Shown: in pieces, positions 10,717 to 29,022 of the stretch
How the letters are laid out: every line of letters starts with the position of its first letter
Position numbering within the stretch: the first letter of the stretch is position 1
NCBI GenBank assembly: GCA_029262755.1
Contig: JAJCYU010000205.1
Span: 1 to 33,469 of the forward strand
Source: Anaerolineae bacterium
GTDB taxonomy: Bacteria; Chloroflexota; Anaerolineae; Epilineales; Epilineaceae
DNA length: 33,469 nt
Reading direction: 5' to 3'
Translations under genes and position numbers: made by a program
The notes under the pieces: generated by a model
Told to the model about the DNA's origin: nothing
Databases searched by the model: none
The model's input: the letters and a program-made list of their open reading frames with translations, nothing else

Positions 10717-12198
10717 CTACGGCGCGACGTCGTAGCGGCAGCGGGCTTCGAGGCCGAAGTCCGGCATCGTGGCGATGATGGTGCGTCGTCCGGGCTCGCC
10801 GAGGATGCCGAGCGCGGCGGCCCACGGACGGCCGTTTACGATCGGACCGTCGTAGAGCGGTCGCTCGCCGGGGGGCGCGTGATCGATCACGATGCGGCCG
10901 CTACGCGTGCTGCTGAAGCGGGCGAAGAGGATCGTGCCGGGGCGGTAGGAGCGATCGCAGCCGGCCGACAGCCACAGGCGCAGGTCGGCGGGCGCAGGCG
11001 TGGGCGTCGGGCCCGCGGTTGGTCGGGCTGTGGGGCGCGGCGTGTTCGTTGGGGGCAGCGGCGTCGGCGGGTTGCCGGCCGCGGCCTCGAGGACAAGCAC
11101 CTGGTTGCGCGCCCGATCGTCGACGGCCAGGAGCAAGCGATCGTCGTAGGAGGCCATGGCCAAGCCCGCGGCCGCGCCCGAAGGCCAGCCTCCGGTGAGG
11201 ACCGTGCCCCAATCGCCGTTGCTGGCGTCGCGGATGGCGTAGTGATACGTGCCCGGCGGTCCCTCCCATACCAGGTGCGTGTTCTCCTTGGGTCCGAGCG
11301 CCATCGCCACGTGCGTGGCTGCCTGCTCGCCGCCTGGAAGCTCCGTCTCCAGGTCCCAAACCGCATCGTCACGTCGCGCCCAGACGGGGCCGGTGGCGGT
11401 GGGAAACGCGAGCTGCGGCACGTCGCCGCGATCCAGGACCAGCGCGATACGCCCAACCACGTCCACGGGGCTGATCACGGTCATGTTGGCGCGGCGCGGA
11501 AGGTCGCGCTCGTAGTACACGGAGCTGTTGGTCAGATCGTGATAGGCCACGTGATATGCGTCATCGGCGCCGACGGCGACGGCTCCGTGCCGGCCCACGT
11601 CCCCGATGGCGTTCGTGCGCAGGTTGAAGTCCTCCCGTGAGGCCCGCCACCGGCCCTGGCGCCAATCGAGGTTGGTCGCCGAATGGAAGCCGATGTGAGG
11701 ATCACCGCCCGCGGCGACCGCCAATGCCACCTCCGTGCCGCTCGGGTTGCTCGCCTCGACCTTGATGCGCTTCCACGTGCCGTCTGATTCGGGGAACGCG
11801 TAGCGCACACCGTAACGCGGATAGTCGTACGCGACGTGAAGCGCATCCCCGGCCACCGCGATCGAGGTCGTGGCCCCGATGTCCTCCGGGCCGTCGACGC
11901 GGGTCGCGGTCCATTCGCCGCCGGCCTCGGCTACGTGGAGCACCTCGGCTCCCGACGGGCCTTCCGGACCGTACAGCGCGAGGTGCGCCTGACCGGAAGC
12001 GTCGAAGGCGATGGAGGGACGGCTACCCGGAATCGTGCCTATGGTCTGCCAGACAATCTGATCCGGAGATGCGGCGGCGCGCGGCACCGTCGCGTGCGCT
12101 GCGCCCAACGCGAGCGACGCGATACTCACCGCGAGCGCGGGAATCCACGCGACGCGCGCGGCCTTCTTCAGCATGTGAATCGTCTTCGAAACGCCCAT
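10717..12198 (-). CDS. Secreted protein of unknown function, beta-propeller-like N-terminal region, Pro/Thr linker, small Cys-containing C-terminal domain
   Basis: Start MGVSKTIHMLKKAARVAWIPALAVSIASLALGAAHA (signal peptide) at ATG 12198 with upstream GGAAGGAAGG. Repeated 'HVAYDYPRYGVRYAF / HIGFHSATNLDWRQ / HVAYHDLTNSSVYY' blade-like motifs; linker PTPLPPTNTPRPTARPTAGPTPTPAP. Confidence 0.8.
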   Translation of the reverse strand: MGVSKTIHMLKKAARVAWIPALAVSIASLALGAAHATVPRAAASPDQIVWQTIGTIPGSRPSIAFDASGQAHLALYGPEGPSGAEVLHVAEAGGEWTATRVDGPEDIGATTSIAVAGDALHVAYDYPRYGVRYAFPESDGTWKRIKVEASNPSGTEVALAVAAGGDPHIGFHSATNLDWRQGRWRASREDFNLRTNAIGDVGRHGAVAVGADDAYHVAYHDLTNSSVYYERDLPRRANMTVISPVDVVGRIALVLDRGDVPQLAFPTATGPVWARRDDAVWDLETELPGGEQAATHVAMALGPKENTHLVWEGPPGTYHYAIRDASNGDWGTVLTGGWPSGAAAGLAMASYDDRLLLAVDDRARNQVLVLEAAAGNPPTPLPPTNTPRPTARPTAGPTPTPAPADLRLWLSAGCDRSYRPGTILFARFSSTRSGRIVIDHAPPGERPLYDGPIVNGRPWAAALGILGEPGRRTIIATMPDFGLEARCRYDVAP

Positions 12199-12246
12199 GA
12201 AAATCCCTTCCTTCCGGCGTGCGGCAAGGGGTCGCCGCACTGAATT

Positions 12247-12270
12247 ATTCTTGTCCATATGAACAATAAT
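12247..12270. promoter_or_regulatory. Candidate operator: near-palindrome overlapping the sufB -35
   Basis: ATTcTTGTcCATATGaACAAtAAT; core TTGTCCATATGAACAA has one mismatched pair in 16 nt. Contains GAACAATA, which recurs at the sufA/sufR intergenic region. Confidence 0.55.
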
Positions 12271-12279
12271 CGCTATACT
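12251..12279 (+). promoter_or_regulatory. Candidate sufB promoter: -35 TTGTCC, 17-bp spacer, -10 TATACT
   Basis: TTGTCC 12251-12256, N17, TATACT 12274-12279; about 110-nt leader to sufB ATG. Confidence 0.6.
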
Positions 12280-12397
12280 CGAACGCTGCGTTGACCGCCC
12301 CAAACGGGCATCGGCGCACCCCTAATCATCGCGTGAAACAGGGGTTCGCGGCAAACGTGAGCCCCTTGCTCGGCACGGTAAATCAGGAGCAGCCCCT

Positions 12398-13846
<1,449 letters not shown>

Positions 13847-13924: not shown

Positions 13925-14697
<773 letters not shown>

Positions 14698-14701
<4 letters not shown>

Positions 14702-16098
14702 GCGGATCCAATGCAACTGCCCCGAACGACTCGTCTCCCGTCCTGAACGCGGTCGGCGACGGCGCGGCCGGACGCTTCGTCGCGGACTTCAAAGCGACCT
14801 CGGGTCAGCTGTCCACCAACGGCCAGTCGTGGCTCGCGCCCATGCGCAGTGCGGCGATCGAGCGCTTCGCGACGCTCGGATTGCCGACGAGGCGCGACGA
14901 AGCGTGGCGCAAGACCGATTTGCGCTCGCTAGCCCGGACTGCCTTTCGCCCGGCCGCCGAGGTCGTTGCACCGGACGCAGACGCCATTACCGCACGCGTA
15001 GCGCAGCTGGCGTTCCCGTCCGTAGCAACGACGCGGCTCGTGTTCGTCAACGGGCGTTTCGCGCCGGAGCATTCCGACGCGTACGTACCGACCGACGCGG
15101 TGCGCGTCGAGCCCCTCGCGCATACGCTACGGGAAGCGCCTGAGCTTGCACAGCCGCACCTGGGTCGCGTGACGGAAAATGATGCGGATGCCTTCGGCGA
15201 GCTGAACACGGCGTTTATGACCGACGGCGGATTTGTGCTCGTGCCGGACGGCGTCACCGTAGTCACGCCCATCCACTTGATCTTCCTCACCGCGCCGGCG
15301 GACGGACCCGTGGCCCAGTATCCGCGCAATCTGTTCGTGATTGGAGACGGTGCAACCGCCACGATTCTGGAATCCTACGCGGGCGTCAACGACACGGACG
15401 TGTACCTCACGAACGCCTATAGCGAGGCGGTGGTCGGCGTCGAGGGCAACCTGACCCACTACAAGCTGCAGCGAGAGAGCGAGTCCGCGTACCACGTGGC
15501 GCGCTTGCAAGGGCGCCAGGAGAACGAGAGCACGATCACCAACACCAACGTCGCGCTAGGCGGCCGAATGGCCCGTACCGACATCGACCTGCACGTGGAC
15601 GGTAGCCGCTGCGAGACGATCATGAAGGGCCTCTACATGGCCCACGGCGAGCAGCACATCGACAACTACACCCGCCTAGATCACGCGCAGCCGGATTGCC
15701 ACAGCCACGAGCGCTACAAGGGCATCTTGGACGGGCGTTCCAGTGCCGTATTCACGGGCCGTATTCTGGTGCGGCAAGATGCGCAGCAGACGGACGCCAT
15801 CCAGGAGAACAGCGGATTGCTCCTCTCACGCGATGCTGCGCTCAGCACGCAGCCTCAGCTCGAGATCTTTGCCGATGACGTGAAGTGCACACACGGCGCC
15901 ACCGTGGGTGAACTACCGGAGAACCAACTGTTTTACCTCCGTGCGCGCGGTATCTCGACGGAAGAGGCCACGGGCATCCTGGCCTACGGCTACGCGAACG
16001 AGATTATCGAAGACATCGAGATCGAGCCGTTGCGTGAGCAGTTGGAGCAACTGATCCGCCTCCGCGTCCGAGAGCGCTTCGCCGCGCTCAAGCGCTAG
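14698..16098 (+). CDS. sufD: Fe-S cluster assembly protein SufD
   Basis: Start ATG 14698 overlaps the sufC stop (ATGA); SufD motifs ([63 protein letters not shown]). Confidence 0.97.
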
Positions 16099-16114: not shown

Positions 16115-16729
16115 GTGAGCGATCTCTCCGACCTGTACCAAGAGGTCGTCGTCGAGCATGCGCGGAGCCCCCGCAACGCAGGCGTGCTGGAGGGCGAAGG
16201 CGTATTGCGTGCGGACGGCGACAATCCGCTGTGCGGCGACCGGATCACCGTGATGCTTGAGATCGACGCCGAGGAGCGGATCCGTGAGATTCGCTTTACC
16301 GGAGATGGCTGTGCGATCTCGACGGCCTCGGCGTCGCTCATGACGGAGGCCGTCACGGGTCTCGGCGTCGCGGACGCGTTGGCGCTCTTCGCCCGGTTCC
16401 GGGAGGTCATGACGACCGATGCAGATCCCGGCGCGACGTCGGCGGACGTGCTCAACACCGCCGCACGCGATGCGACGGTCGTGGATGGCGCCGATGTGGG
16501 GCATGCGGGCGTAGAGAGCGCAGACCCCGATAGCGTACCGCCCCTCGGTATGCTCGAAGCGTTGGTTGGCGTGCGTGCCTATCCCATGCGCGTGAAGTGC
16601 GCGACCCTGGCGTGGCACACGCTGCGCGCAGCGTTGCCGGACGAACCGGCCGCCGTCGCACCTACGACGCGGACCGTGCCCGTATCCGGTCGCGCCGCGG
16701 ACAGCGTCCCAGTGGTGTCCACCGAGTAA
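16115..16729 (+). CDS. sufU: SufU-type NifU-like scaffold/sulfur-transfer protein with an internal insertion
   Basis: GTG start 16 nt after sufD; LYQEVVVEHARSPRNAG, NPLCGDRITV, FTGDGCAISTASASLMTEAV, LEALVGVRAYPMRVKCATLAWHTL. Confidence 0.93.
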   Translation: MSDLSDLYQEVVVEHARSPRNAGVLEGEGVLRADGDNPLCGDRITVMLEIDAEERIREIRFTGDGCAISTASASLMTEAVTGLGVADALALFARFREVMTTDADPGATSADVLNTAARDATVVDGADVGHAGVESADPDSVPPLGMLEALVGVRAYPMRVKCATLAWHTLRAALPDEPAAVAPTTRTVPVSGRAADSVPVVSTE

Positions 16730-19637: not shown

Positions 19638-20939
19638 TTAAGCGTTGAGGCCGAACATTGCTTGCGCATGCTTGACGCCCTCGACCAAGTCGTCGATGTC
19701 TTCCAGCGTATTGTAGACGGCGAAGCTCGCGCGCGTGGAAGCAGCGACACCCAAATGATCATGCAGCGGCATCGTGCAGTGATGCCCGGCACGCACCGCG
19801 ATGCCGCGCGCGTCTAGGATCGTCGCGAGGTCGTGGGCGTGTAGGCCATCAACCGTGAAGGAAACCACGCCTTCGCGCGCAGCGTCGGCCGCGGGTCCGA
19901 GCAGCCGCAGACCGGGCAGCGCGTCGAGACGTCGCGCAGCGTCCCCGGCTAGCAGACGATGGTGCGTGGCGATGCGATCCATGCCGAGCCCTTGCATGTA
20001 GTCGACGGCAGCAGCAAGTCCCACGGCCTGTGCGATGGGCGGCGTCCCGGCTTCAAACCGGTACGGTGCGTCGTTCCAGGTGGAACCCTCCATCGTGACA
20101 CGGCGGATCATCTCGCCGCCGCCCTGCCACGGGGGCATCGCTTCCAAGAGCTCGTGGCGCGCCCATAACACGCCGATGCCCGTCGGTCCGAGCATCTTGT
20201 GTCCGCTGAATGCGAGGAAATCGACATCGAGTCCCCGGACGTCGACCGGGCCATGCGGCACGCTCTGCGCAGCGTCCAGAAGGACCTTTGCACCCACCGC
20301 ATGGGCGGCGGCGACCACCTCGGCTACCGGATTCGTCACACCAAGCGTATTGGATACGTGGGCCATCGTCACAAAGCGCACGCGATCGTCCAGCACCGTC
20401 GGCAATGCGTCGAGATCGAGGGTGCCGTCGGGTAGCAGCGGTATGGCGCGCAGCTCCGATCCCGTGCGCCGCGACAGCAACTGCCAGGGCACGAGGTTGC
20501 TGTGATGCTCCATCGGCGTGACCAGGATCACATCCCCCGGTCCGAGCTGATCTTGCCCCCAACTGCCGGCCACCAGGTTGATGGCGGCCGTCGTCCCGCT
20601 GGTGAACACGACCTCGCGCCGGTCGTCCGTGCCCAAGAACGCGGCGACACGTGTTCGGGCACGCTCGTAGAGGTCGGTCGCCTCGGCGGCAAGACGATGA
20701 ACCCCGCGGTGGACGTTGGCGTGGGAGTGGGTCTCGTAGCGTCGCATCGCATCGAGGACCGCGTTCGGCCGCTGGCTGCTCGCAGCGCTGTCGAGGTAGA
20801 CCAACCTCTGCCCGTTCTGCTCATGCGCCAAGATCGGAAAATCGGCCCGGACGACCGCGCCATCCAGTGGCTCCGTCAAGACGGGCGATCCGGGATCGGC
20901 CACGGGCGGTGGGTTCAAATCGAGGGTGCTTGGGTTCAC
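19638..20939 (-). CDS. sufS: SufS-type cysteine desulfurase
   Basis: [76 protein letters not shown]. Confidence 0.96.
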
Positions 20940-21124: not shown

Positions 21125-21586
21125 CTAGTGGCTGCAGCCCGAGCCGCAACCGCCGCCTGCCGCGGCCTCGGAAGCCCCCGGTTCGCCCTTGCCATCTTCG
21201 TTCTCCGTCCGGAAGCTGCTTCCGCAACCGCAGGACGAGGTGGCGTTCGGATTCTCGATCTTGAAGCCGCCGCCCATGAGGCTCTCGACGAAGTCGATCG
21301 ATGCTCCCTGCAAATAGGTGATGCTCACAGGGTCGACCACAATTCGCGGGCCGGCATTCGCCTCAAACACGAGGTCGCCGTCTTCGATCTGATTCTCGAA
21401 GGCCATGCCGTACTGAAAGCCGGAGCAGCCGCCGCCGCTGACGAAAACACGCAGCGCGTGGTCGGCCATGCCCTTCTGCTCCATGACCTCGCTCAGCTTC
21501 TCCGCAGCCGACGCGGAGATCATGATCGGGGAAATTCCGACCATCTCCTGCGGCGCGGTTCGAATGTCCTGGTCCTCACGAATCAT
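21125..21586 (-). CDS. sufA: HesB/IscA-family (SufA/ErpA-like) Fe-S carrier with Cys-rich C-terminal extension
   Basis: ISASAAEKLSEVM...LRVFVSGGGCSGFQYGMAFE...VVDPVSITYLQGASIDFVESLMGGGFKIENPNATSSCGCGSSF; extra tail ...GGGCGSGCSH. Confidence 0.9.
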   Translation of the reverse strand: MIREDQDIRTAPQEMVGISPIMISASAAEKLSEVMEQKGMADHALRVFVSGGGCSGFQYGMAFENQIEDGDLVFEANAGPRIVVDPVSITYLQGASIDFVESLMGGGFKIENPNATSSCGCGSSFRTENEDGKGEPGASEAAAGGGCGSGCSH

Positions 21587-21674
21587 CGCGATGATCCCCT
21601 TCGTGAGCGGCTAACGTGCCGCGTTGGTTGGCAATAGCGTCCATCGGGCAAATGGTACCATATCGGAGGGAGCC

Positions 21675-21704
21675 CGCCAATATTGTTCGTCCGTATCAGC
21701 ATAA
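21675..21704. promoter_or_regulatory. Candidate operator in the divergent sufA/sufR intergenic region
   Basis: CGCCAATATTGTTCGTCCGTATCAGCATAA; TATTGTTC (reverse complement GAACAATA) plus AGNATAA align with the reverse complement of the sufB promoter element (TTATTGTTCATATGGACAAGAATAA). Confidence 0.5.
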
Positions 21705-21707
21705 AGA

Positions 21708-21736
21708 TTGACCGGACTTCCGCCCCCTTCTATACT
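21708..21736 (+). promoter_or_regulatory. Promoter of sufR-like gene: TTGACC-N17-TATACT
   Basis: TTGACC 21708-21713, 17-bp spacer, TATACT 21731-21736; only 9 nt from -10 to the ATG at 21746. Confidence 0.7.
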
Positions 21737-21745
21737 GCCGGGGTT

Positions 21746-22387
21746 ATGCAAGACACACGCAAACGCATCCTCGATTACCTGCGTACGCATGGTCGCGCTG
21801 CCGTGGATCCCCTGGCGGAGCACTGCGGGTTGGCTCCGGTTACCGTGCGGCACCACCTCAGCGTGCTCCGCAGCCGCGGCTTGGTCGTGATGGATACCGA
21901 GCCCGTAGGGCGCGGGCGGCCACGCCACGTCTATCGGCTCAGCGCGCTCGGCGGCGAAGAGGTCGTCGAGGATCGCTATCGGCATATGGCGGTCCGGCTA
22001 TTGGAGGCCATGAAGGCCGGTAGCCGTGAGTCCGCGGAGCTGTTCTTCAAGGACATGGCGGATCGGCTCGTGGCGGAACGCAAGGCCGAACTACTCGATC
22101 AGCCGATCGAAACACGCCTCGACGCCGTGGGCGCTCTTCTGGGGGATGAAGGCTTCGCGGTGTTCTGGGAACAGGACGGAGATAGCTATCTCGTGCGCGA
22201 GGTCGCGTGCCCGTTTCAGGGCTTGGGCGCGGATCACCGCGAGGTTTGCTGTATGGACATGCACCTTCTCGAATCGCTCGTTGGTGCCGACGGTACGGTC
22301 GTCCGTGAGCGTTGGCGTTTGGAAGGGGACGACGAGTGCGTGTACCGCGTCGTGCCGCGTGTCCCGGTCGTCGAGCGCAGCACGTGA
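21746..22387 (+). CDS. sufR: SufR-like HTH transcriptional regulator with putative Fe-S cysteines
   Basis: MQDTRKRILDYLRTHGRAAVDPLAEHCGLAPVTVRHHLSVLRSRGLV (winged HTH); C-terminal CPFQGLGADHREVCCMDMHLLESLVG...DDECVYRV (Cx12C plus further Cys); divergent from sufA. Confidence 0.8.
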   Translation: MQDTRKRILDYLRTHGRAAVDPLAEHCGLAPVTVRHHLSVLRSRGLVVMDTEPVGRGRPRHVYRLSALGGEEVVEDRYRHMAVRLLEAMKAGSRESAELFFKDMADRLVAERKAELLDQPIETRLDAVGALLGDEGFAVFWEQDGDSYLVREVACPFQGLGADHREVCCMDMHLLESLVGADGTVVRERWRLEGDDECVYRVVPRVPVVERST

Positions 22388-28996: not shown

Positions 28997-29010
28997 AGAA
29001 CGCATGAACG

Positions 29011-29022
29011 GAACACCTGTTC
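29011..29022. promoter_or_regulatory. LexA/SOS box GAACACCTGTTC
   Basis: Matches the GAAC-N4-GTTC core of the Gram-positive/actinobacterial-type SOS box, located 14 nt after the -10 and 26 nt before the lexA ATG. Confidence 0.8.

Follow-up and report, generated by a model that had tools for sequence, protein, structure and literature searches.

In cyanobacteria and Streptomyces avermitilis, SufR recognizes an operator of the form CAAC-N6-GTTG (PMC8593673; PMC11995493). In Mycobacterium tuberculosis, the SufR protein Rv1460 represses suf and carries three conserved cysteines (PMC6034842), and in Myxococcus xanthus suf and isc genes are under RisR, an Rrf2-type repressor (PMC9973013). We analyzed a 33,469-nucleotide stretch of DNA from an Anaerolineae bacterium (the window; genome G000) in which two SufR operators are predicted. 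The arrangement resembles the CAAC-N6-GTTG system in having an inverted repeat around an N6 spacer, sites at suf and sufR promoters, and a winged-helix SufR with C-terminal cysteines, but the half-sites differ, being ATATTTATSA/TSATAAATAT across the class and TSARCAWWA in the window's family. The window SufR shares with Rv1460 (C203, C216, C244) three conserved cysteines and the C-x12-C spacing; it differs in the last spacing (C-x29-C against C-x27-C) and in gene arrangement, as sufR here lies 9 kb from sufB and is divergent to erpA-sufS. With RisR the likeness is that of an Fe-S-loaded suf-operon repressor acting, here by prediction, at an imperfect palindrome over the -35 and -10 elements, whereas the protein family is a different one and the window's genome shows no Rrf2 match.

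Profile matches bear out the earlier note's gene calls, sufBCDU and a SufR-like gene at 21746. On the plus strand lie sufB (12398..13846; PRK11814, 923 bits), sufC (13925..14701; TIGR01978), sufD (14698..16098; TIGR01981) and sufU (16115..16729; TIGR01994). On the minus strand are sufS (19638..20939; TIGR01979) and an erpA-like A-type carrier gene (21125..21586; PRK13623), divergent to sufR on the plus strand (21746..22387; TIGR02702, 71 bits; HTH_20/HTH_5), which encodes an N-terminal winged helix and cysteines C155, C168 and C198. The gene order fumC-sufS-erpA beside divergent sufR is the same in a sister genus (G002).

A promoter scan found a sole sigma-70-like site within 12150-12450, TTGTCC-N17-TATACT on the plus strand (-35 at 12251..12256, -10 at 12274..12279; 9/12 matches, 0.1 in shuffles), and the sufB start at 12398 is about 112 nt downstream of the likely transcription start. 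The earlier note had described a near-palindrome with one mismatched pair whose left end is this -35, and both points hold: TTGTCCATATGAACAA (12251..12266, strand-neutral) pairs at 7/8 positions and begins with TTGTCC. The extension to a longer dyad, ATTCTTGTCCATATGAACAATAAT at 12247-12270, is also present, with two mismatched pairs (10/12 pairs). The exact 16-mer is the sole 0-mismatch match across the 5.06 Mb genome bin, which is 84% complete and includes a few AT-rich, foreign-looking contigs; a single 1-mismatch match lies on an AT-rich contig resembling contamination. Immediately upstream of the predicted operator is an inverted repeat, GTGCGGC-AAGGGGTC-GCCGCAC (12219-12240), and in the sister genus a hairpin resembling a terminator occupies the equivalent position. 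A search for a sufB leader RNA family gave no Rfam match anywhere in the window.

Symmetry of this degree is frequent, with 35 16-mers of at least 7/8 pairs and eight 24-mers of at least 10/12 pairs in the window, so the dyad alone proves nothing. These 35 comparable dyads also speak for a chance origin, in which an AT-rich promoter carries an accidental dyad and sufB is constitutive or controlled elsewhere. More informative was a motif learned away from the site. We collected 114 sufR upstream regions of the same class, set aside the two belonging to the window's family, and trained on the remaining 112 with our own expectation-maximization search, imposing no symmetry. The result was a 26-bp palindrome, ATATTTATGATAATTATCATAAATAT, with two 10-bp halves around N6 and an estimated share of 0.82 of the sequences. 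In 53 of 98 good sites TTGAC starts at site offset 25, and in 18 at offset 34. The published box CAAC-N6-GTTG occurred 0 times in the window and in 0/114 class sufR upstream regions.

The class motif also stands before sufC operons located away from sufR (for example in G025, G027, G003 and G010), and in G004 it precedes sufB. When one mismatch at most was allowed, 59/299 class genomes contained it, while a reversed control gave about one match. A SufR homologue (E<=1e-20) was present in 54 of the 59 motif-bearing genomes versus 113 of the 240 others (Fisher odds ratio 12, p=6e-11, values that shared ancestry and base composition may inflate). This co-occurrence supports assigning the motif to SufR. 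Strong sites outside suf preceded radical-SAM genes in all of the first six examined (6/6; B12-binding radical SAM, SPASM and MoaA types; such loci, from several class genomes, are L347-L352, L353 and L375-L380). A wider sample placed sites before sufR, sufC and more radical-SAM genes, as well as before genes for a MetE-type synthase and an FTR1 iron permease, and also before some unrelated or unassigned genes. One perfect class-type site (L359:1501-1526) directly precedes an FTR1 gene. We predict from these positions that radical-SAM genes extend the SufR regulon.

When all window positions were scanned blind with this foreign-trained motif, the highest score fell on the sufB promoter, at ATTATTCTTG-TCCATA-TGAACAATAA (12244..12269, plus strand; score 3.1), and the second on the erpA/sufR intergenic region, at ATATTGTTCG-TCCGTA-TCAGCATAAA (21680..21705, plus strand; score -2.0), followed by an unrelated site at -7.7. 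In a sample of GC-rich contigs from this genome (526 kb in all), partly picked for partial matches to the family pattern and hence biased against the result, the two sites ranked 1st and 3rd. Both scores are far below that of a typical class site (median 26, maximum 39), though top-ranked in the genome sample. The second rank falls where autoregulation would be expected, which supports the SufR reading.

Mononucleotide shuffles gave p=0.002 for the sufB promoter, 0.0085 for the sufR region and 0.0175 for the sister genus. A harder null, in which matrix columns were permuted symmetrically so that composition and palindromy were kept, gave p=0.056 at sufB and 0.006 at sufR, each taken singly, then 0.007 for the pair and 0.003 with the sister genus added; with random complementing as well, the values were 0.08, 0.010, 0.015 and 0.007. 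The sufB site alone is thus marginal (p=0.056-0.08), and both sites together carry the argument. A further point for chance is that a permuted matrix scored as well at sufB in 5.6-8% of trials, yet an accident would not readily account for the ranks of 1 and 3 in 526 kb, the joint permutation values (p=0.003-0.015) or the retention of a half-site and the -10 element in the sister genus described below; we regard chance as unlikely. A direct pairwise comparison of the sufB and sufR upstream regions gave at best 18/26 identical positions (p=0.08, not significant). Taking these lines together, we assign a probability of about 0.72 to the reading that 12244-12269 is a heavily diverged SufR operator and that a foreign-type suf operon is apparently under home control.

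The class half TSATAAATAT becomes the GC-richer TSARCAWWAW in the window's family. Both window sites follow the half-N6-half register that the class motif shows beside the -35; at the sufB promoter the left half does so weakly, and the right half, TGAACAATAA (12260..12269, plus strand), is well preserved in the family form TSARCAWWA. On the plus strand of the window that form occurs only at 12260 and 21696, and a relaxed copy at 21689 on the minus strand constitutes the left half of the sufR/erpA site. A regulon search with the family pattern TYGYCCNNATSARCAWWA yielded no further convincing site; the hit C49 in the sister genus lies inside a restriction-modification gene.

The sister genus, the one other family genome informative for operator conservation, has TCAGCAATA at the same promoter position before sufB. 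Its site reads TTTTCGGTTG-CCCCAA-TCAGCAATAT, and its promoter, TTGCCC-N17-TATACTCG, has the -35 TTGCCC in place of TTGTCC at identical spacing, the same TATACTCG around the -10, and the right half-site in the same register. Over TTGCCCCAATCAGCAATATTCCCTATACTCG, 21/26 positions are kept in register, a value reached by 0/300 shuffles. In this genome the left half is weak, and it coincides in part with the T-run of what looks like a terminator belonging to the gene upstream. Scanning its own sufR upstream region with the class motif brought up no site that convinces (p=0.65), which counts against the SufR reading. Of the sufB promoter, this nearest relative conserves the right half and the -10, but not the palindrome as such. 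Upstream of sufB genes of the class, where suf operons mostly begin with sufC, the exact palindrome was looked for and not found.

The class geometry centers the sufB site at 12256/12257, whereas the earlier note had drawn its dyad around 12258/12259, 2 bp further right. If the latter were the true axis, the operator would be TTGTCC-ATAT-GAACAA, still bound by SufR, with the family spacing contracted at sufB relative to the class. Pairing is better there (10/12 pairs over 24 bp, against 4/13 at the class center), and the sister genus keeps TTGC...GCAA with a compensatory pair change. The sufR/erpA site, however, has the N6 spacing of the class and a family-form half on either side, and a single dimer would probably not tolerate half-sites shifted by 4 bp. 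We consider the contracted form rather unlikely and retain the class register. Ranks 1 and 2 of the blind scan within the window support the proposal that the SufR made from 21746 has an operator here, while the exact dyad centered at 12258/12259 is not supported.

Around the second site, the promoter scan placed a sufR promoter, TTGACC-N17-TATACT, at 21708..21736 on the plus strand. Its -10 (TATACT) is only 9 nt before the ATG (21731-21746), so the mRNA is probably leaderless or nearly so; the sister genus likewise has TATAAT near the sufR ATG. On the minus strand a candidate erpA-sufS promoter, TTGGCG-N17-TACCAT (21652..21680), was read by eye and is below the promoter-scan threshold. Its TTGGCG stands at offset 25 from the 21680-21705 operator, the commonest class arrangement, and one operator may therefore serve both directions.

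The protein encoded at 21746 scores above Pfam cut-offs for HTH_20, HTH_5 and HTH_DeoR, as expected of an ArsR/DeoR-type N-terminal winged helix-turn-helix. Its best curated match is TIGR02702, the cyanobacterial SufR family, and it misses the equivalog cut-off (71.4 against 178.8 bits), placing it on a distant branch. Solved structures matched by sequence were distant winged-helix proteins only. C155, C168 and C198, the first two spaced C-x12-C, are invariant across 113/113 class SufR homologues, and the matching three cysteines are needed in M. tuberculosis Rv1460 (PMC6034842). Family SufRs retain the recognition helix TVRHHL, and in their wing P-V and P-A stand in place of two mostly basic class residues (R/K at 53 and R/H at 54). 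These wing changes may be linked to the changed half-site of the family.

The sufB gene is of a foreign type. Window SufB is 75-83% identical to that of two family relatives and only about 45% to that of its own class, and it reaches up to 78% identity (~77-78% to other phyla) with proteins of Verrucomicrobia, Proteobacteria, Planctomycetes and others. In a SufB tree, 27 class sequences group together (support 1.0) and the family sequences fall with other phyla, the three family members forming no one well-supported group. We surveyed 77 loci of this foreign SufB type with enough upstream DNA: an Rrf2-type regulator gene directly precedes sufB in 34/77, and SufR does so in 0/77. One family member (G001) has a full Rrf2-type SUF regulator gene (L069:1586-2070), over the TIGR02944 cut-off, directly before its foreign-type sufB; no SufR homologue was found in that bin, which is 81% complete.

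These counts speak for a different Fe-S or iron regulator at 12244-12269, either an Rrf2-type SUF regulator that arrived with the foreign operon or Fur. The window's genome gave no Rrf2 match at E<=0.001 in a bin that is 84% complete, and on this ground we rejected an Rrf2 regulator of the same genome. The Fur box is an odd 7-1-7 dyad, TGATAATNATTATCA, part of which the class motif TGATAATTATCA resembles. The class dyad, however, is even, its TSA triplets being separated by N6, and we rejected a Fur box for its wrong spacing. The motif, moreover, tracks SufR genes (p=6e-11) and precedes sufR itself, which speaks against both regulators; we judge this alternative quite improbable. A LexA box was likewise rejected, as the sufB dyad reads GTYC-N4-GAAC, the reverse of GAAC-N4-GTTC. 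The window's own lexA (start ~29050) is preceded by GAACACCTGTTC (GAAC-N4-GTTC, 29008-29019), just downstream of a TTGACA-N17-TAGGAT promoter, probably for autoregulation.

As this SufB type is usually governed by other regulators, the operon appears to have been rewired to SufR. On the simplest account, Rrf2 control of the transferred suf operon would have been lost in the line leading to the window's genome and its sister genus, and the resident SufR would have taken the operon over.

Site, promoter, gene order, class motif, the ranks of both sites and the invariant cysteines are computed; from them we infer binding, occlusion and Fe-S sensing by SufR. Holo-SufR, loaded with an Fe-S cluster and encoded at 21746, would bind 12244-12269 as a dimer, masking the sufBCDU promoter from its -35 through the spacer as far as the -10 and excluding RNA polymerase. 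When clusters are lost through iron shortage or oxidation, apo-SufR would leave and sufBCDU would be transcribed. This block of polymerase and release when clusters run short would parallel the cyanobacterial system (PMC8593673). The second operator, at 21680-21705 between the divergent erpA-sufS and sufR promoters, would provide autoregulation and link both suf blocks.

In the paper library searched, we found no literature on a SufR regulon in Chloroflexi or on SufR in Anaerolineae, and a regulon-database entry may exist; studies of SufR to date concern cyanobacteria and a few actinobacteria and describe a single box, CAAC-N6-GTTG. On balance we lean toward a broader picture in which SufR acts throughout the class on an operator that departs from the published box, namely an AT-rich palindrome of 26 bp whose halves flank N6. 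Its regulon would then include, besides suf, radical-SAM enzymes and perhaps iron uptake. In the GC-rich family of the window the half-sites would have drifted to TSARCA, and a foreign suf operon, elsewhere often Rrf2-governed, would have been captured by SufR via a new operator. If true, another box, equally spaced but unrelated, that occurs across a class and is tied to radical-SAM genes would widen the distribution and regulon of SufR and offer a direct system for the co-divergence of an Fe-S repressor and its operator. The window would be a case of a transferred suf operon seemingly wired to a resident repressor by promoter change alone.
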